64,000 nucleotides of DNA, taken from NCBI GenBank assembly GCA_003132665.1, contig PKYN01000016.1, positions 1 through 64,000 of the forward strand, in the 5' to 3' direction. The notes under the pieces were generated by a model. The model was not told the origin of the DNA and made no database searches. It was given only the letters and a program-made list of their open reading frames with translations. Both the position numbers and the translations under genes were made by a program. This document shows, piece after piece, positions 25,286 to 35,626 of this stretch (the stretch's first letter is position 1; each line of letters starts with the position of its first letter). The DNA comes from Actinomycetota bacterium. GTDB lineage: Bacteria > Actinomycetota > Thermoleophilia > Gaiellales > Gaiellaceae.

Positions 25286-25663
25286 ATGGAACTAAACGGA
25301 GCACGTTCAAACCCTCGAGCCGGAGTTGAGCTCTCTCGGCTGGGTGCACTCCACGACGAGCTGCTCTGGAAAGCCATGGCCAATCCCCGTGAACCTCGAC
25401 CTGCCCCCGCCAAAGTGAGCCCAGTACTTGAGACCGTGACGCTGGTGCTCGAGCGAGCCCGGAAGCCGATGCGAGTTCGAAGGCTCGCCGGATTTGTGAG
25501 CGAGTTAGGCCAGGCAGTTCGGTCGAGCGCCGGCGTGGTAGAGACGTCGGGAGTGATCGCTCGTCTCTCGACGCCGGACCGTTTCCTGCCGCTCTGGATC
25601 GCGCTGGCGATGGCTGGAGAGCTGGCTCTCGTCCGGTTTCGGCAGGATTCAGCGCTGCGCTAG
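25286..25663 (+). CDS. family copy B, chimeric/truncated version of the HARE-HTH-like protein
   Basis: MELNGARSNPRAGVELSRLGALHDELL...VLETVTLVLERARKPMRV, then diverges from copies A and C. Confidence 0.5.
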   Translation: MELNGARSNPRAGVELSRLGALHDELLWKAMANPREPRPAPAKVSPVLETVTLVLERARKPMRVRRLAGFVSELGQAVRSSAGVVETSGVIARLSTPDRFLPLWIALAMAGELALVRFRQDSALR

Positions 25664-26478
25664 ATCTTGAACTTCCTCGTCGCGGGAGTCTGATCGAGCT
25701 TGCCGCTGGCGTCCTTGGCCCGCACCCGGAAGACGTGCTTGCCGCGCTTCAGGTGCTTGTAGCTCTTGCCCGAGCGGCACATCTCGTACTTGCCCTTGTC
25801 CAGCTTGCACTGGAAGTTGAGCTTCCCCCTGCCGCCGGAGCCCGAGAACCTGAAGATCGCCGTGCGCTTCTTGGCGTTTATCGCTGCCTTGACGATCTTC
25901 GTCTGCGGGGTTGCCTGAACCTTGACGGCTGGACTGGCGGTTCCGTTCGTTCCGTTCGTTCCTGCTGGGCCGGCAGCACCGGTAGCACCAGCGGGACCAG
26001 TAGCGCCGATGGAACCAGTAGCGCCGGTAGCGCCGGTGGAACCAGTGGGACCGGTAGCACCAGCTTGCGGGGCGTAGGTGTCGATCTGGATCGCCGGCTG
26101 TCCCCAGCCGTGCGCGACGTCCCAGCAGCCCGAGTCGAGCCTGAAGATGCCCAGGGCGGTGCCCGAGCAGTATGCACCGGTCCAGAAGGAACTCAGGTAG
26201 GCAGAGTCGGGCAGCGGGTCGGTACCCACGAAGGGAGCGTTAACGACCGCCACATTCAGCGAGTCGTACCCGCAGCCGCCCGATCTGGAGTGGCATGGCG
26301 CCCCGTAGCCGATCGGCTGGTAGCCCCAGTCGCTCGTGTTGTACATGACCGAGACAATCACCTGGTCCGGCAGCGTCACGCTCTGCCCGCCCACCAGTGG
26401 CAACTCGCAATCTGCGTTGCGACATCTCGGCAAGTTGGGCAAACGGTTACCGCGCGCTCGGGGAACATTCCTGAACAC
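25660..26478 (-). CDS. collagen-like Gly-X-Thr/Ala repeat protein with C-terminal Ig-like domain; N-terminus appears truncated
   Basis: GATGPTGSTGATGATGSIGATGPAGATGAAGPAG; C-terminus FSGSGGRGKLNFQCKLDKGKYEMCRSGKSYKHLKRGKHVFRVRAKD; no signal peptide at the ORF start. Confidence 0.6.
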   Translation of the reverse strand: MFRNVPRARGNRLPNLPRCRNADCELPLVGGQSVTLPDQVIVSVMYNTSDWGYQPIGYGAPCHSRSGGCGYDSLNVAVVNAPFVGTDPLPDSAYLSSFWTGAYCSGTALGIFRLDSGCWDVAHGWGQPAIQIDTYAPQAGATGPTGSTGATGATGSIGATGPAGATGAAGPAGTNGTNGTASPAVKVQATPQTKIVKAAINAKKRTAIFRFSGSGGRGKLNFQCKLDKGKYEMCRSGKSYKHLKRGKHVFRVRAKDASGKLDQTPATRKFKI

Positions 26479-26761: not shown

Positions 26762-28816
26762 ATGCATGACGAGCTTCGTCAGCGACTGACGCCTCGGGCG
26801 ATCTTCGAGCTTCTCGACGAAGCCAACGTAGCGAGTACAACGACGATCGCCCGGGCCAGCGCGCTGGCGGAAGATCACCGCACTCGAGACGACCGGCGAC
26901 GCCTGATCGCAGTCGCGATGAACCTCAGCGGTTGGATGCTGAGGCTGGAGGGTGGGGACGGCCGTCGGCATCCCTTCTTCGACGACATCCTCTTCGGAAT
27001 CCGCGCGCGAGCGGACGCCGGTAACGTCGACATCCTCCTTCTCACCGGAGCGTCCAGCCAGGTCAGCGGCGAGCCGACGCGCTACCTCGATCTCTGCCGG
27101 CGCCACGGGGCCGAGGGCATCATCCTCGGCGCCTTCGTGCCCGAGGAGCCGGAGCTCGCCTCGCTCGCCTCCTCCGGGTTTCCCTGCGTCGCGATCGACA
27201 CGCAGCTGATCGGGCCCAGGGTCGGCTTCGTCACCTCTGACAACGTGAGCGGAGCGGCCGCTGCGGTTCGCCACTTGATCGAGCTCGGCCGCAAGCGAAT
27301 CGCCTACGTCGGTGGCTGGGGCTCCGAGCCGGCCCACATCGATCGCCGTCTCGGTTACGAGAGCGCGCTCGATGAGTCCGGGCTCGAGCTGCGGGAGGAG
27401 TACGTGGTGCTCGGCGGCTGGCTACACCAGCAAGCGCATGCCTTGACTCATCAGTTGCTGGCCCTGGCCGAGCCGCCCGACGCCATCTTCTGCGCCAGCG
27501 ACGTGATGGCGATTGGCGCGATGCTCGCCATCGAGGAGGCCGGGCTACGAATCCCGGAAGACGTAGCGTTGGTCGGCTTCGACGACAGCGACTACGCGAC
27601 GATGACGGTGCCCTCACTGACGAGCGTTCGCCAGGATCGCGTCGGACTCGGGGCGGCGGCCGTTGAGGCGATGCTACGCGTTCTGGACCATCCGGACAGC
27701 TCTCCGCCATCCTCCGTTCTCCCGGTGGAACTGATCGTGCGCGAGTCGTCTGCGCGAGACTTGGCAACAGGCGCCAACGCCTCGCTGAAAACTCCCGGCG
27801 AGCGAGCCGAGCAGGCTGCGATTCCAAGCCGACTGGGGATCGAAGAGTCCGCCCAGCGCCTGTCCGCCGCGGCGGTCTACCGCCTGCTCGGACGAACGCC
27901 CGGCTCTCCCCCGAAGCGACCGGACGAGCCGCCCGCGAACGTTCTCAGGCAGGAATGGCGCCCGGAGAAGCGCCGCCTTGTTGCGCTTGCGATCGATACC
28001 GCTCCCGATCAGAGCTTCCGCCACGCCTTCTTCGACGAGCTCTTCTACCGAATCCGCGCCCACGCGCACGCGCAGGACATCGACCTGCTCGTTTTCACGA
28101 CAATCGGGACGACGTCGGGAGTGCCTTTCCCGCCCTTCCTCAAGCTTTGCCGGCGCCACAGAGCGGATGGGCTCGTGATCGTCTCGCTGGCGCCCGAAGA
28201 GCCCTCAGTCGCGGAGGTCGCGAGCTCCGACCTCCCCTGTGCCACGCTCGACGTCGACCTGCTCAGCGATCGCATAGCCTTCGTGATGTCCGACAACGTG
28301 GGCGGCGGCGTCAACGTAGTTCGCCACCTGATCGAGACCGGGCACCGCAGGATCGCCTTCATCGGCGGCCGCGGCAACGAGCGACCGACGGTCGACCGGC
28401 ACTTCGGCTATCAGAGCGAACTGGCGCGCTGGGGATTGCCCCATCCGGAGGAGTACGTGGCCATGGCCAACTGGCTTCCGCGCAGAGCCTACGAGGCGAC
28501 GCAAAGGTTTCTCGCCCTTCCCGAGCCGCCCGACGCCGTCTTCTGCGCCAGCGACGTGATGGCGATCGGTGCCATGGCGGCGATCGCGGAAGCGGGACTT
28601 CGCATTCCCGAGGACGTCGCGGTCGTCGGCTTCGACGACATCGACTACTCGCGCTTGGTTACGCCCGCACTGACCACCGTTCGCCAGAACCAGGCGAAGC
28701 TCGCCAAGGGGCTGATCGAGGCGATGATCAACCTGCTCGAGCATGCGGGCGAGCCACCGACGGTGTCGGTAATCCCGATCGAGCTGGTCGTGCGCGGGTC
28801 GAGCGTCCGCGAATAG
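26762..28816 (+). CDS. tandem LacI-type sugar-sensor domain protein without a recognisable N-terminal HTH
   Basis: Two homologous about 320-aa units, both with EPPDA(I/V)[25 protein letters not shown](L/V)VGFDD. Confidence 0.85.
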
Positions 28817-28887: not shown

Positions 28888-28944
28888 GGTTCGTACGTCG
28901 CACCTTGGGTCATAGACAGCGGAGCACGTTCAAACCTTTTTGGA
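28888..28944 (+). repeat. 57-bp dispersed repeat, copy 2
   Basis: ggttcgtacgtcgcaccttgggtcatagacagcggagcacgttcaaacctttttgga. Confidence 0.85.
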
Positions 28945-29305
28945 ACTAAACGGGGCACGTTCGAACCCTCGAGCCGGGGTTGAGCTATCTAGGGTCAGCT
29001 CGCTCCACGGCGAGTTGCTTCGCAGAGCCTCGGTGAATCCACGTCAACCCCGGCCTGTTCCGGCCAAGGTGAGCCCAGTGCTTGAGACCGTGACACTGGT
29101 TCTGGAGCGAGCCGGGGGTCCGATGTGGATACGTGAGATTCACGCAGCCGCCGAGGAGCTCGCAGGCGAGCCCCTGCTTTGGACATCGGTGAAAGCAGCG
29201 CTGGCCGCAGGTACGTCGGGCAAGAGTCCGCGCTTCCAGAGGATATGCCGCGGCGTCTACGAGACGGCCAAGAGCGTGAACGCTCGCCGAACTCGGCAGG
29301 GATAG
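28940..29305 (+). CDS. small HARE-HTH/winged-helix-like protein, family copy C
   Basis: TTG start; ELNGARSNPRAGVELSRVSSLHGELL...GGPMWIREIHAAAEELAGEPLLWTSVKAALAAGTSGKSPRFQRICRGVYET. Confidence 0.65.
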   Translation: MELNGARSNPRAGVELSRVSSLHGELLRRASVNPRQPRPVPAKVSPVLETVTLVLERAGGPMWIREIHAAAEELAGEPLLWTSVKAALAAGTSGKSPRFQRICRGVYETAKSVNARRTRQG

Positions 29306-29321: not shown

Positions 29322-30656
29322 TTATGGGCGACTGCTCCTTCGAGTGCTCGTCGCTCCGCTAATGCCGATGCGCGACACGTAGTCTCCGACCTGTTGCCTC
29401 ATTCGCTCCGCCTCGTACGGTTTCCCGGCCCAGCGCAGCATGTCTGCCCGGTCACGAGCAATGAGGGCCGCCTCGCGCCAGAGCTTGCCCTGTTCCGCGA
29501 GCGTGAGCACTCGTTGATACACCTTGTCGGCCGCGTCGTAGTCAGCATGCGCACCGAGAGCTAGAGCTTTCGCGTAGAGGGCGGAGGCCTGCTCGAAGGT
29601 GTGCTCGGGTAGCAGCTCAAGAGCTTCATCGGCCGCGAGGTTGGCTTCCTCCATGCGGTCCTGTCGGGCGGCGAGCAAGGCCTCGTGCCCACGCAGGATT
29701 CCCCAGTCATTCGCCTCGGCATGGGCTGGGAACAGCGCCCGAGCGGCACGAAGGTGCTTAGCTGCGCCGGTAGTCTTGCCGCCCCACAAGAGGATCCCGA
29801 CACAGAGCACATGAGCGCGCGCGAGGCGCAACGTATCCTCGGATCCCTTGAGCAGTGAGATCGCGGTACGCAGATGCCGAAGCGCGAGCAGTCGATCGTC
29901 CCGTGTCGCCGCGACTCGTGAAAGCGACCAATGAATCCTTGCTCGTGCGTACGGGTTCGCGTTCTCGAGGTCGCCTGCGTATTCCTCAAGCACGCGCTCG
30001 GCGCGTTCGAAGTCGCCGTTATCAGAGAGCGTCTGGCTTAGCTCTGTGGCGAGGATTGTCCGCGGAGTACTGTCCTCGACTTCGCTGATCGCGCGCTCGC
30101 ATAGCACCACCGCATCCTCTGTCCTGCCTAAGGAACAATAAGCTCGGGCTAGAGTCGCATAGACATCGGGGAAGACGTCCGGCCTCATGAGTGGATGAGT
30201 GATCGCTTCTTCGAGTTGCTCGACAGCGTCACCTACTCGCCCCCGGCCTGCCGCAGTAGTACCGAGCGCGGCTCGTGCTTTGGCAACGACATCGTGTGCG
30301 CCCTCACGTTGTGCAAACGTGATGAGAGTCCGGAGATCGCGCTCGATTGCCTCGTCGCTGGTGTCGAGACGTATCCGTAGCTCCATGTCGGCGAGCGTAA
30401 GCTCGAGCTCCTCGCGGGTCGTGATATCAACCCCGGTTTCGAGGTACTCGGGCGAAACTTCGAGCTTGCGCGCAATACGGCGGACTGCCTTGATCGATGG
30501 CGCGCGCTTCCCAGCTTCGATTCGAGAGACCTGCGCGGCCGTCACGCCGGGGCCCGTGAGTGCGCCTTGGGTTAATCCCTTTTTCTCGCGGAGCCGGTGA
30601 ATCCGCTCGCCGATGGTCTCAGCGCTACGACGTTCGATGTGACGATTCTCCAGCAC
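29322..30656 (-). CDS. XRE-family HTH regulator with C-terminal TPR-like repeats (RRNPP-like)
   Basis: IGERIHRLREKKGLTQGALTGPGVTAAQVSRIEAGKRAPSIKAVRRIARKLEVSPEYLETG then repeated helical pairs (DVYATLARAYCSLGRTEDAVVLCERAI). Confidence 0.85.
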   Translation of the reverse strand: MLENRHIERRSAETIGERIHRLREKKGLTQGALTGPGVTAAQVSRIEAGKRAPSIKAVRRIARKLEVSPEYLETGVDITTREELELTLADMELRIRLDTSDEAIERDLRTLITFAQREGAHDVVAKARAALGTTAAGRGRVGDAVEQLEEAITHPLMRPDVFPDVYATLARAYCSLGRTEDAVVLCERAISEVEDSTPRTILATELSQTLSDNGDFERAERVLEEYAGDLENANPYARARIHWSLSRVAATRDDRLLALRHLRTAISLLKGSEDTLRLARAHVLCVGILLWGGKTTGAAKHLRAARALFPAHAEANDWGILRGHEALLAARQDRMEEANLAADEALELLPEHTFEQASALYAKALALGAHADYDAADKVYQRVLTLAEQGKLWREAALIARDRADMLRWAGKPYEAERMRQQVGDYVSRIGISGATSTRRSSRP

Positions 30657-30680
30657 TTACTAACCGATTCTGGGCGTTGT

Positions 30681-30710
30681 CAAGGGGTAAGTCAACTGGT
30701 ACCCCCCTTG
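30681..30710. promoter_or_regulatory. imperfect inverted repeat (CAAGGGGTA-N10-TACCCCCCTTG) between regulator and peptide gene
   Basis: Overlaps a TTGACA -35-like hexamer on the minus strand (30678..30683). Confidence 0.45.
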
Positions 30711-30776
30711 CCTCTTGGTACGACGCATGGAAAGGTCCTTTTGTAAGCGTAATCGAATCAACGAGGGGAGGGAATC

Positions 30777-30854
30777 ATGCGCGCAAGGATCATCTTGCTA
30801 CTCGGCGCCCTCGCGACCATCGCGAGTTCCGCCGCCTTCTACATCAAGTGGTAG
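30777..30854 (+). CDS. putative secreted/hydrophobic signalling peptide precursor, 25 aa (MRARIILLLGALATIASSAAFYIKW)
   Basis: Below the ORF-track size limit; RBS gaggggagggaatcATG; short basic N-terminus, hydrophobic core, AxxA-like region, aromatic tail; divergent to the XRE-TPR gene. Confidence 0.55.
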   Translation: MRARIILLLGALATIASSAAFYIKW

Positions 30855-30884
30855 ATAGAAGTCGCGCTAGCACCGATCGCATCC

Positions 30885-30916
30885 AGGAGGCGGGGCGAGC
30901 GCTCGCCCCGCCTCCT
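30885..30916 (+). terminator. perfect 32-bp palindrome after the peptide ORF, terminator-like
   Basis: AGGAGGCGGGGCGAGC|GCTCGCCCCGCCTCCT; flanked by ccgatc...gatcgg; no T-tract. Confidence 0.55.
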
Positions 30917-30964
30917 CCGATCGGGCACAGTGCGACGCCTCGTGCCGGACAGAACGACCCTCGC

Positions 30965-31073
30965 TCAGATGATCTCCTCGGGGCGGTAGCGCTTCTGGGG
31001 GCATGATCTGACTCCTCCTTTGCGGTCCGAAAACCATGACCTCAGGGTGGACCGATTTTAGGGGGTCAGGTCA
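30965..31073 (-). mobile_element. IS3-type element remnant: terminal region plus start of orfA
   Basis: Minus strand: ...aaaggaggagtcagatcATGccccca.. then K-R-Y-R-P-E-E-I-I* in a shifted frame, matching the N-terminus typical of IS3-family OrfA. Confidence 0.5.
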
Positions 31074-31325
31074 CGTCGGCGCGGCGGACACGCCGTCGAG
31101 GGCTTCGATGGTTGGTGTCCGGGTCGGAACTCCTACGTGCCTTCCAGCACGACCCGCCACCCGCTTCACTCCCGATCGTCGGTCCCGCGTCGTCGCGTGA
31201 GGCCCTACCCCATGGTGACGGCAACTCCACTGCTCCGACCCGATCACCGCACCACGGCCTGGGTGCCCGCGGAACACCTGCGGCGATGACGTGACCATGC
31301 GCCGAAAGACGGCGGCCGAACGATT

Positions 31326-31351
31326 GAGGGGCGCCCGGCCGGGCGCCCCTC
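31326..31351 (-). terminator. perfect 26-bp palindrome downstream of the GH74-like gene
   Basis: GAGGGGCGCCCGG|CCGGGCGCCCCTC. Confidence 0.6.
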
Positions 31352-31374
31352 TATCTGCTCTAACTTGCGAAGTG

Positions 31375-34300
31375 CTAGATCCTGAAGCTCTTCTTGGCCG
31401 GAGTCAGATCGAACTTGGCTCCCGCCTTGGCCCGCACCTGGAATACGTGCTTGCCACTCTTCAGGCTCTTGTAGGTCTTGCTGGAGCGGCAGGACTTGTA
31501 CTTCCCGTTGTCCAGCTTGCACTGGAAGCTGAGCTTCCCCTTACCGCCGGAGCCCGAGAACCAGAACTTCGCCGTGCGATTAATGGCGGAGATCGTCGCC
31601 TTAGCGATCTTCGTCTGCGGGCGTGTCTGAGTCTTGACGGCAGGACTGGCGGTTCCGTTCGTGCCGGCTGCTCCGGTAGCACCAGTAGCGCCGGTGGGAC
31701 CAGCGGGGCCAGTAGCGCCAGCGGGGCCGGTAGCACCAGCGGGGCCGGTAGCACCAGCGGGGCCGGTAGCACCAGCGGGGCCGGTAGCACCAGCGGAGCC
31801 TGTCGCCCTGACCACGGTAACGACGGTGTTGTCGGCGCCGGAGTCACGGCTGTAGTAGCCGCCGATGACGGTGCCGACGGTGAAGCTGAAGTCGTCCGCC
31901 GTACCGACGTCCACTCCGATCGTGCACGTCGCGGTGGCCTTGCTCGAGTTATCACCGCTCGTCGGGCCGAAAGACGCCGTACAGAGCGGTTCGTTCTTGT
32001 CCCGGTTGACGAACGTCACCGTCGCGTTCCGGATGTCACCGGAGGTCGTGTCGCCGGCCGCATCGGACGTCACGGAGACGTCCTGCACGGTCGTCGCCAG
32101 AGTGACCGTCGCCACCGAGATCTTCGGCGAGAAGGTCGGCACAACCGTCGCACCGACGTAGGTCGCTCGCGCGTCCTCCTGAGCGACGTTGACGGTGAAT
32201 GACGTCTCGCTGTTCGAGCCGCCGGGATCGCTGACTGTGACGGTGACCGGGTAAGAGCCCGGCGCCGCCGTTGTCGTGCCGGACACCTTCCACCTCTGCG
32301 TGCCCGGGAACGTTCCCTCGTCGGACGTCGAGGCGGTCGCGAGCGAGAGACCCGCCGGCAGCCCGACGGCGTTCGCCGTCAAGCTCGCCCCGGCCTCGTC
32401 CCCGACCGTGCCCGTCACGGTCAAGTCGGGAACACCGTCGCTGTACTGGGTGTGCGCGGACGATGCGCTGCTCGTCGCCGTGACGTCGGCCGGGATAACC
32501 GACGAATCGGTCGAGCCCGTGTCCGTGCTCCAGTTGACCTCACCGACGCGGATGCCGAGGCCGTTGCTGCCGATATAGACGCGGCCGAAGACCTTCGAGT
32601 CGCCCGAGAGCGCACTGAGGAGGCCGAACTGGTGCTTATTGTCGTTGATTCGCTTCCAGGTGGCGCCGCCGTCGAGCGAGCGGTACTGACCGAAGTACGC
32701 GGCCGCGGCCGGGGACACGGAGTTGTCGGAGATCACGCCCGCCGCATAGAGGGCTGGAACAGAGTTGTCTCCAACGCCCAGACCCTCGCCCACCCACTGG
32801 AAAGTGCTGGTGGTACCGGGGCTGACCTTCGCCGAAGTCCATGTGCCGGTGGAGGTGTCGTAGGTGACGTGGACCAGACCGCCCGCAGTCGTGTTGGGCG
32901 CCAACCAGATGCTGCGCGTCTTGTACACGTCGATCTGGACCTTGCCGCCCGGGATGCCGACGCCGCCGACCGTCTGCGCGTGGAACGTCTTGCCGCCATC
33001 CTCGCTGACGTACATCGTCGTGCCGGTGAACGCGTAGAACACGTCCGGGTTGAACTTGTCAGAGTAGATATTGACACTGCCGCTGGTCACCAGCGTGCCG
33101 GTCGCACTGTAGAACGTGCTGGGTGTCCAGGCCGTGCGGTCGCCGTTCTTGACGACCTGACGGATCTCGCTCACGGCCACCGGGCGGGTGGAGTCGGAGC
33201 CCACCACCGCGCTGTCGGGGCCTTGGGAGACATCCGCGTAGTAGGTCGAGGTGATGCGTGTGTTGCCGACCTCCCACACCACCGTCTTGGCGTCCGCGCT
33301 GATCGAGATCCAACCCGAACTGCTCTGCGCGGTCGGCTCAGTGGCGTTCGACGGCGCCGCGAGCGGCGTCGCCGTCTTGCCCTCGTCGAACGAGATGACG
33401 CCGGCGCTCATGTTCGTGTTCTGATAGTTGCCGGACGGCGTAGAGACCATCACGTTCTGCTTCAGGCCCGCGTAGTCCATGTTCGCGCCGTTGATCCAGC
33501 GCTCGTAGTAGCCCGGCTTCACCTGCTTCTGGACATTGTTGTAGAAATCGAGGTCGTAGCGTGGATTGCCGTTCGCGTCGAAGGCCGGATCCAGGTACTT
33601 GACCTGTTGGACCGGCGACTCGGTGTTGACCTGGCTGTTCTTCGGAGAGACGGTGTAGTCCTTCCCCCACGACATGACGCCCCAGTCGCCGAGGGTACTG
33701 ATGAGGTAGTCGTCCGTATGGGTCGGGCTCATCAGGCTCAAGACGGCCGTCTGCTCGATACCGTCGTCCCAGAAGCCCCAGACGACCTGGTTGTCCTTGG
33801 TGATGGGCTGGTCGGCGACCTCCAGGTTCTTGGTCATCCAGACGCCGTTGCCCGTGTTGAACAGCGCCATGTTGCTGTCGTACGGGTTGATCTGGATGTC
33901 GAACGCCCAGTGCACGGCGGAGCCCCAGCCGTTGTTCTTGTCGACGTAGCCGACGCCGCGGTAGTCCATCTTGCCGACCACCTCGCTGTGGATCACCTTC
34001 CAGTGCGCACCGTAGTCGTTCGTGTACCAGACCACTTCCTCGGAGAAGTCCTGGTGCCGGTGGAAGCTCGAGGCGACCATGACACCCGGGCGTTCGGGAT
34101 CGACGGAGATGCCGCCGATGCCGCCGCGCTGCATGACCTGCCCGCTCGCGATCTGAGCCGGCGTGAGGTCCGGGTACTGCTTGGTGTAGACGTTCTGCGG
34201 GGTGATGTTCTCGGACGTTCCCGCGTTGACGTCGAAACGGTAGACACGGCCGTCCTGCGCGAAGTTCGAGTTCGAGCCAACCTGTCCAAAGTTGTTCAGG

Positions 34301-35505
34301 TTGAACTCGGCGTAGGCGACGACGAGGTTGCCGTTCGAGTCCCACGCCGGGTGCTCGGCGACGAAGCCTCCGTACTGCCGGGTCGGGTTGGCCACAGGCT
34401 GGCCGGGCAGCTCGGTGAACGTGCTGCCGCCGTCGTTCGTAATGTAGAGCGACTTGTACGGACGCTGCTGCAGCGGGTCGACCGCCACGGTGGGCGGAGT
34501 CGTGCTGGTGGCGCCGATGGTGCCGACGACGATCCGGGTGGAATTGCCACTCGCGTCGACCGGACTATTCGGGTCGATCGTCACGAACGTCGGGTGGAAG
34601 TCAACGGGGGTACCTGTGGCGCCCGTGACACGGGCGAAGGTCTGACCCGCGTCGGAGCTCTTCCACAGGCCGGCCGACTGACTTGCGTAGTAGACGATGT
34701 TGTTGTTCTTCGGGTCGATCGCCAGCCGCGGACCCGTGCTGCGGTTGCTCCCGTCGTTGCCGTTCATGGAGATGCTCGGCTCCGGGAACCGCTGCCAATT
34801 GGCGCCGTAGTCGTCCGACCGGTAGATGGCGGCGTTGGTAGCGCTACTGCCGGCTGCCATGTACACGCGACCGGGCTGAACCGGGTCGGGCATGATGCCC
34901 GTGACGAAGGTCTCGCCGTCGCCCGGGCCGTTGGGACTGGTCGCGCTGTAGGCCGAGCTGGAGGAGGTGGCCTCATCGGTGAGCGCGACCCAGTAGTCGC
35001 GGCTGAAGTCGTAGCGGTAGGCGCCACCCATGTCGGTCATCGCGTACAGGACGTTGGGCTCGATCTTCGAGAACACCTCGCCCGTCACGTAGCCGCTACC
35101 GCCGACCTTGGCGGAGCTCCAGTTGTAGCCGTTCTCTGTCTTGGATACGACGTGCACGGCAAAGGTCTGCGTGGCTTCGGCATAGCCGGCCTCCGCAGCG
35201 GTCACCTCGACGTACATCGTGCCGGCTTTTTCCGGGGTGATGACCAGGCTGTCACCGTCGGCGACGACCTTGGCCTTATCGGTGCTGCTCGTCCTGATCG
35301 CGATAGTCGCGTCCCCAGGGTCGACCGTCAGTGGAACGGTGGTCGGCGTGGTCGTAACAGTCCCGGGGTAAATCGCCAGGGTCTGATCCGGAATGGACGC
35401 AAGGCTGATCGGCGGAACGCCGGCACCAAGGCCGGCCGGGACAGAAGGCAGCAGCAACACCGCTGCAGCAACCGCCAGGCCTAAGAGCAAGTACAAACGC
35501 TTCAT
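31375..35505 (-). CDS. secreted GH74/xyloglucanase-like BNR-repeat protein with collagen-like stalk and C-terminal Ig-like domain
   Basis: Signal peptide MKRLYLLLGLAVAAAVLLLPSVPAGLGAG; GGSGYVTGEVFSKIEPNVLYAMTDMGGAYRYD, IYRSDDYGANWQRF, GLWKSSDAGQTF; start preceded by AGGAGG. Confidence 0.75.
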   Translation of the reverse strand: MKRLYLLLGLAVAAAVLLLPSVPAGLGAGVPPISLASIPDQTLAIYPGTVTTTPTTVPLTVDPGDATIAIRTSSTDKAKVVADGDSLVITPEKAGTMYVEVTAAEAGYAEATQTFAVHVVSKTENGYNWSSAKVGGSGYVTGEVFSKIEPNVLYAMTDMGGAYRYDFSRDYWVALTDEATSSSSAYSATSPNGPGDGETFVTGIMPDPVQPGRVYMAAGSSATNAAIYRSDDYGANWQRFPEPSISMNGNDGSNRSTGPRLAIDPKNNNIVYYASQSAGLWKSSDAGQTFARVTGATGTPVDFHPTFVTIDPNSPVDASGNSTRIVVGTIGATSTTPPTVAVDPLQQRPYKSLYITNDGGSTFTELPGQPVANPTRQYGGFVAEHPAWDSNGNLVVAYAEFNLNNFGQVGSNSNFAQDGRVYRFDVNAGTSENITPQNVYTKQYPDLTPAQIASGQVMQRGGIGGISVDPERPGVMVASSFHRHQDFSEEVVWYTNDYGAHWKVIHSEVVGKMDYRGVGYVDKNNGWGSAVHWAFDIQINPYDSNMALFNTGNGVWMTKNLEVADQPITKDNQVVWGFWDDGIEQTAVLSLMSPTHTDDYLISTLGDWGVMSWGKDYTVSPKNSQVNTESPVQQVKYLDPAFDANGNPRYDLDFYNNVQKQVKPGYYERWINGANMDYAGLKQNVMVSTPSGNYQNTNMSAGVISFDEGKTATPLAAPSNATEPTAQSSSGWISISADAKTVVWEVGNTRITSTYYADVSQGPDSAVVGSDSTRPVAVSEIRQVVKNGDRTAWTPSTFYSATGTLVTSGSVNIYSDKFNPDVFYAFTGTTMYVSEDGGKTFHAQTVGGVGIPGGKVQIDVYKTRSIWLAPNTTAGGLVHVTYDTSTGTWTSAKVSPGTTSTFQWVGEGLGVGDNSVPALYAAGVISDNSVSPAAAAYFGQYRSLDGGATWKRINDNKHQFGLLSALSGDSKVFGRVYIGSNGLGIRVGEVNWSTDTGSTDSSVIPADVTATSSASSAHTQYSDGVPDLTVTGTVGDEAGASLTANAVGLPAGLSLATASTSDEGTFPGTQRWKVSGTTTAAPGSYPVTVTVSDPGGSNSETSFTVNVAQEDARATYVGATVVPTFSPKISVATVTLATTVQDVSVTSDAAGDTTSGDIRNATVTFVNRDKNEPLCTASFGPTSGDNSSKATATCTIGVDVGTADDFSFTVGTVIGGYYSRDSGADNTVVTVVRATGSAGATGPAGATGPAGATGPAGATGPAGATGPAGPTGATGATGAAGTNGTASPAVKTQTRPQTKIAKATISAINRTAKFWFSGSGGKGKLSFQCKLDNGKYKSCRSSKTYKSLKSGKHVFQVRAKAGAKFDLTPAKKSFRI
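31674..31800 (-). repeat. 18-bp tandem repeats encoding collagen-like GATGPA units
   Basis: Consecutive copies of ggggccggtagcaccagc. Confidence 0.9.
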
Positions 35506-35626
35506 CTCATCAATCCTCCTTATGGGAACCGCATATCTCAAAACCACAGTTACAATCGTTGCAATCAGTTCGCTCGACTCGGATCGGCCAGAAAGGGGCG
35601 CTTTCCGCAGCGCCACTATATAGCAA

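Follow-up and report, generated by a model that had tools for sequence, protein, structure and literature searches.

A tryptophan-tipped peptide gene divergent from an XRE-TPR regulator recurs in Gaiellales and points to a peptide communication system in soil actinobacteria

Does an XRE-TPR regulator of an uncultured soil actinobacterium, located back to back with a tiny unannotated peptide gene, represent a peptide-signal and receptor pair of the kind described in Firmicutes? To address this question, we analyzed a stretch of 64,000 nucleotides (hereafter, the window; contig PKYN01000016.1 of assembly GCA_003132665.1, positions 1 to 64,000) from a 2.15-Mb, 78%-complete genome in the family Gaiellaceae (order Gaiellales, class Thermoleophilia, phylum Actinomycetota), which is represented here mostly by soil metagenome assemblies. 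The initial annotation had proposed a candidate quorum-sensing pair of RRNPP architecture at this locus, with a 25-codon peptide gene followed by a perfect palindrome, and the regulator, the peptide gene, and the palindrome were confirmed with the following coordinates.

29322..30656, minus strand: XRE-HTH and TPR regulator of 444 aa (GTG start at 30656, stop at 29322), the presumed peptide receptor.
30657..30776, no strand assigned: 120-bp divergent intergenic region with the presumed promoters and operator, containing TTGTCAAGGGGTAAGTCAA.
30763..30776, plus strand: Shine-Dalgarno (SD) region GAGGGGAGGGAATC immediately before the ATG of the peptide gene.
30777..30854, plus strand: 25-codon peptide gene encoding MRARIILLLGALATIASSAAFYIKW, with a basic N-terminus, a hydrophobic core, and the C-terminal code FYxxW.
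30834..30851, plus strand: presumed mature signal, inferred as about the last 6-8 residues (AFYIKW or slightly longer).
30885..30916, no strand assigned: perfect 32-nt palindrome, the probable end of the monocistronic peptide transcript.

The regulator contained HTH_3 at residues 19-72 (E 2e-11) and several TPR families over residues 130-426 based on Pfam. The peptide gene starts 120 bp from the regulator start on the other strand, with GAGGGGAGGG upstream of its ATG. The arms of the palindrome (30885-30900 and 30901-30916, 16 nt each) are 100% complementary without a loop, although no T-run follows and the terminator scan therefore did not call it. Additionally, perfect hairpin arms of at least 7 bp were found after 36 of 81 peptide genes.

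Two paralogous receptors (65% and 59% identical) were identified in the same genome, and each has a divergent 25-codon peptide gene at about the same distance, MRMRLITLIGMAALIASYAAFYPHW and MRVRFTMLAAGFATLATLFGFYRGW, with the C-terminal FYxxW. Other genomes of the genus have the same forms. In the family, 101 of 103 genomes had a receptor-like hit at E <= 0.001, a count that includes a second, more distant XRE-TPR clade. In receptors 30-42% identical to that of the window, most divergent intergenic regions hold a peptide gene of 25-32 codons with a strong SD and a C-terminus such as NGSLPWGP, GTEPWGPW, GGLFWGP, FTTYWP, or GTPWS, and 82 peptide genes were curated beside related receptors in Gaiellales. 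Nevertheless, some receptors lack any recognizable adjacent peptide (e.g., loci L020, L021, L053, L064, L066, and L068; L numbers denote the receptor loci compared). Of these, L066 and L068, relatives from the genus of the window, have in-frame stop codons in the profile match and are apparently decaying systems. In the sister family, two receptor homologues in tandem (L169 and L171) have no recognizable peptide gene, and the second match begins after the HTH region (profile positions 83-86 onward).

To determine whether such ORFs could arise by chance, a fixed rule was applied, namely a contiguous SD match of at least 6, an ORF of 5-60 codons, and a Trp in the last six residues. This rule was fulfilled divergently in 54 of 106 loci, against 0.34 expected on Markov shuffles of the same regions, whereas 2 of 106 loci fulfilled it on the other strand and 0 of 22 in a control XRE-TPR clade (motif FSKEYVSQIE; L004, L184, and L186-L205). 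The rule was written after the first peptides had been seen, although the shuffles and the control clade used the same rule, and the peptide of the window itself falls just short of it, with an SD match of 5. Nine pairs of peptide genes gave a pooled pN of 0.099 and pS of 0.320 (Fisher p = 1.6e-11), indicating purifying selection. Because the closest same-genus pairs are too similar to inform on their own, this is a family-level statement; the pair of the window and L002 has a pS of 0.70 and a pN of 0.36. These results rejected a chance ORF, as well as the possibility that any XRE-TPR regulator has such a neighbor, and the coding pair is all but certain.

Four comparative observations single out the C-terminal six to eight residues as the likely signal. 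First, in one genus-level clade the ORF is only six codons long, with excellent SD sites (MAPWGS, MLPWGS, MHPWGS, MYPWGC, MAPWGC, and MWPWGE). Receptor relatives in the genus of the window have MRSKTQWW, MRSKLPWW, MREKWPIW, MRDKWPWW, and MLRSRLGWF, and those in a sister family have MYGGRIWP, MYAGRLWP, and MPGGKAWP. In total, 20 forms are leaderless, and on an IQ-TREE receptor tree the change between leadered and leaderless forms needs four events, at least three of them forced by well-supported branches. Second, L060 (998-2296 and upstream) has a precursor with four copies of GSAGWGP, in three different codon spellings and without an obvious hydrophobic leader, beside a receptor whose sister has GSTGWGP, and L010 has two copies of ETRSGVWPWGS. 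Third, in five loci with tandem peptide genes, 39 of 112 leader residues differ but only 1 of 35 in the last seven, despite five synonymous changes there. Fourth, 75 of 77 unique peptides contain Trp, most often with Pro or Gly before it and Gly or Pro after it (consensus [P/G]-W-[G/P]-P), and the exact code follows the receptor clades. Hydrophobic-leader precursors, leaderless 6-12-mers, and multi-copy precursors share one C-terminal code (mostly [P/G]-W-[G/P]-P). Interestingly, the initial annotation had expected a conserved hydrophobic core and a variable C-terminus at homologous loci, but within a receptor clade the C-terminus is the conserved part and changes between clades as a receptor-specific code. 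The leaderless and multi-copy forms, the Trp-centered code, and the spread to other Actinomycetota had not been anticipated.

The AlphaFold2 model of the receptor, built with 37 homologues, was confident (mean pLDDT 92.8, pTM 0.82) and showed a predicted HTH followed by a long all-helical, TPR-like superhelix. A Foldseek search against the PDB ranked generic TPR superhelices first, and the HTH-TPR regulator among the 50 best matches listed was PlcR with PapR7 and DNA (3u3w, E 8.5e-6). PlcR was also the best natural HTH-TPR regulator by profile (E 8e-12 over residues 8-207), although generic TPR proteins score as well or better. As TPR and HTH are common folds, these results support the architecture but do not prove shared descent with RRNPP receptors.

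The intergenic regions were enriched for TTGACAAC/GTTGTCAA (20 of 79 regions against 0.4 expected), a plausible half-site that also appears in the window region as TTGTCAAGGGGTAAGTCAA. In the paralogue L003 it forms the palindrome TTGTCGCGCGACAA (TTGTCN4GACAA), which occurs once in the genome, in the intergenic region of the paralogue itself. This suggests local autoregulation, and no regulon was recovered by searching for this operator. A Wzy_C (O-antigen ligase, PF04932) gene lies just downstream of the peptide position in 13 syntenic Gaiellaceae loci (L099, L100, L101, L102, L105, L107, L111-L115, L121, and L135) and is a candidate target linked to surface polysaccharide, but it was not found at the window or its paralogues. 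At the window, the next gene encodes a convergent Sortilin/BNR-collagen protein, and no conserved target gene was found. The genome also encodes four OppA-type binding proteins and M50/RseP-type proteases, so an import and processing route is possible, although the presence of these proteins is not specific.

Taken together, the pair is best explained, with fairly good confidence, as a peptide-signal and receptor module that works like the RRNPP systems of Bacillota. In the absence of direct evidence of transcription, translation, export, import, or binding, we infer that the basic and hydrophobic N-terminus takes the peptide to the membrane, that the C-terminal 6-8 residues (here within ...AAFYIKW) are released, for example by signal peptidase or the M50/RseP-type protease, and that they re-enter through an oligopeptide permease. 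They would then bind the TPR superhelix of the neighboring regulator and change its grip on operators between the two genes, which would adjust transcription of the peptide gene and of as yet unknown targets. In lineages with leaderless peptides, the same code is made directly and must move by another route, or act inside the cell. That the C-terminus is the ligand of the receptor is likely, and that it passes between cells is plausible.

The alternative that survives best, although it is unlikely, is that the peptide acts only inside the producing cell, as a self-sensing co-factor or timer. Leaderless 6-9-mers have no export sequence and leader change needs at least three events, so export may be dispensable. 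However, 60 leadered peptides keep a mean N-terminal charge of about +2 and a strongly hydrophobic core, with acidic residues in the core in only 2 of 60, which a purely cytosolic ligand would not need, and the leaderless peptide SIP of Streptococcus pyogenes is secreted and reimported although it lacks a leader (PMC10518010). A small membrane protein or type I-like toxin repressed by the regulator, with no ligand role, is very unlikely. The hydrophobic core of about 15-20 residues, the strong SD, and the divergent position of the leadered forms alone would fit, but the corresponding positions beside related receptors hold 6-residue peptides with no membrane segment and a 4-copy precursor without a leader-like core, and in tandem duplicates it is the C-terminus that is fixed, not the membrane part. 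A regulatory leader peptide whose Trp codon controls attenuation is comparably doubtful. The conserved Trp codon, the hairpin after many of the ORFs, and the Wzy_C gene following in 13 loci are in its favor, whereas there is mostly a single Trp, the hydrophobic leader is under purifying selection at the amino-acid level, tandem and multi-copy forms make no sense for attenuation, no common downstream gene was found at the window or its paralogues, and no Rfam family reached its gathering threshold in 30500-31400. Finally, a precursor of a modified natural product (RiPP) or bacteriocin, suggested by the short precursor with a conserved core and the multi-copy forms, is the least likely, since no modification enzyme or transporter was recognized among the recurrent neighbors looked at or next to the pair in the window, and unmodified 6-mers leave no room for a leader.

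Among known systems, Rgg-SHP of streptococci likewise has an adjacent, often divergent short hydrophobic peptide gene with a basic N-terminus, a C-terminal signal (which is inferred here), and a cytosolic HTH-TPR receptor, but it belongs to a different phylum, whereas the system here has a Trp-centered [P/G]W[G/P]P code, a receptor of about 440 aa with a longer TPR array, and no PptAB export evidence. RopB-LCP has an ultra-small ORF with a strong SD that encodes only the mature short signal, divergent from an HTH-TPR receptor (PMC10518010). This leaderless class is described for Firmicutes only, and here leaderless and leadered forms alternate within one receptor family, including within the genus of the window; the peptide of the window has a hydrophobic leader and therefore does not belong to the leaderless class. 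PlcR-PapR of the Bacillus cereus group shares the HTH plus TPR receptor and the presumed short C-terminal peptide signal, but sequence similarity is low and the TPR fold is generic. The candidate subfamilies of RRNPP_detector are defined by a 250-500-aa TPR receptor next to a short SD-led propeptide, which agrees with the receptor size and gene pairing found here, but that survey covered Firmicutes and viruses only and describes actinobacterial signals as small molecules (PMC10075063). A structural phylogeny of these receptors mentions no actinobacteria (PMC12700828), and a 2026 review treats RRNPP as a Gram-positive system with Firmicutes examples (PMC13220807). We found no description of such systems in Actinomycetota or Streptomyces in a literature search with restricted coverage of subscription papers and preprints, so absence is not proof. 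As RRNPP-type signaling is described as a trait of Bacillota and their phages, a conserved peptide-receptor family in mostly uncultured soil actinobacteria would extend peptide quorum sensing of this type to another phylum. Moreover, the leaderless and multi-copy relatives work as natural experiments that name the likely mature signal, six to eight residues around a Trp, before any biochemistry, and the repeated change of the leader in one receptor family gives a handle on how leaderless signals arise and move.

Strong receptor hits in Thermoleophilia are confined to this family and one sister family of the order. In a sample of 398 Actinomycetota genomes, more distant homologues were found in several other families, and 8 of 20 examined have a divergent peptide fulfilling the strict rule (0.12 expected), for example ...GAANWPHH, ...ATAGFPWPK, ...AISGYPWPK, ...SAGWPKH, and ...AAKWPWG. 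Scans of viral contigs gave no answer. It is somewhat more likely than not that Actinomycetota possess their own widespread RRNPP-like peptide communication system with a Trp-centered code, present in Gaiellales and at least several other families of the phylum, in which the signal has repeatedly switched between leadered, leaderless, and multi-copy precursors while the receptor kept the same architecture. Homologues were also found in 35 of 61 genomes of a large-genome genus, which is Streptomyces (a genome coordinate, G697:C2:1441643, coincides with Streptomyces sp. NZ_CP108509.1). In one Streptomyces subclade (L231-L234 and L246-L260), the HTH-TPR homologues have a divergent ORF of about 49-58 aa with an apparent Sec signal ending ANAGPARAAE and a variable tail, possibly a longer-precursor version, whereas S. 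clavuligerus has an M64 metallopeptidase instead. These were not counted as the same peptide.

Additionally, the window contains two proteins (31375-35616 and 25660-26478, both on the minus strand) with collagen-like GxT repeats and a shared C-terminal part (300 nt, 81% identical), the larger of which also has Sortilin/BNR repeats. A double LacI-type sugar-binding protein (26762-28816, plus strand) consists of two Peripla_BP_3 halves in tandem, with a 154-nt repeat 81% identical between the halves. Lastly, a 185-nt direct repeat (25287-25471 and 28941-29125, 80% identical) covers the reading MELNGARSNPRAGVELSR in two small ORFs, with no Pfam match for the one scanned (28940-29302).
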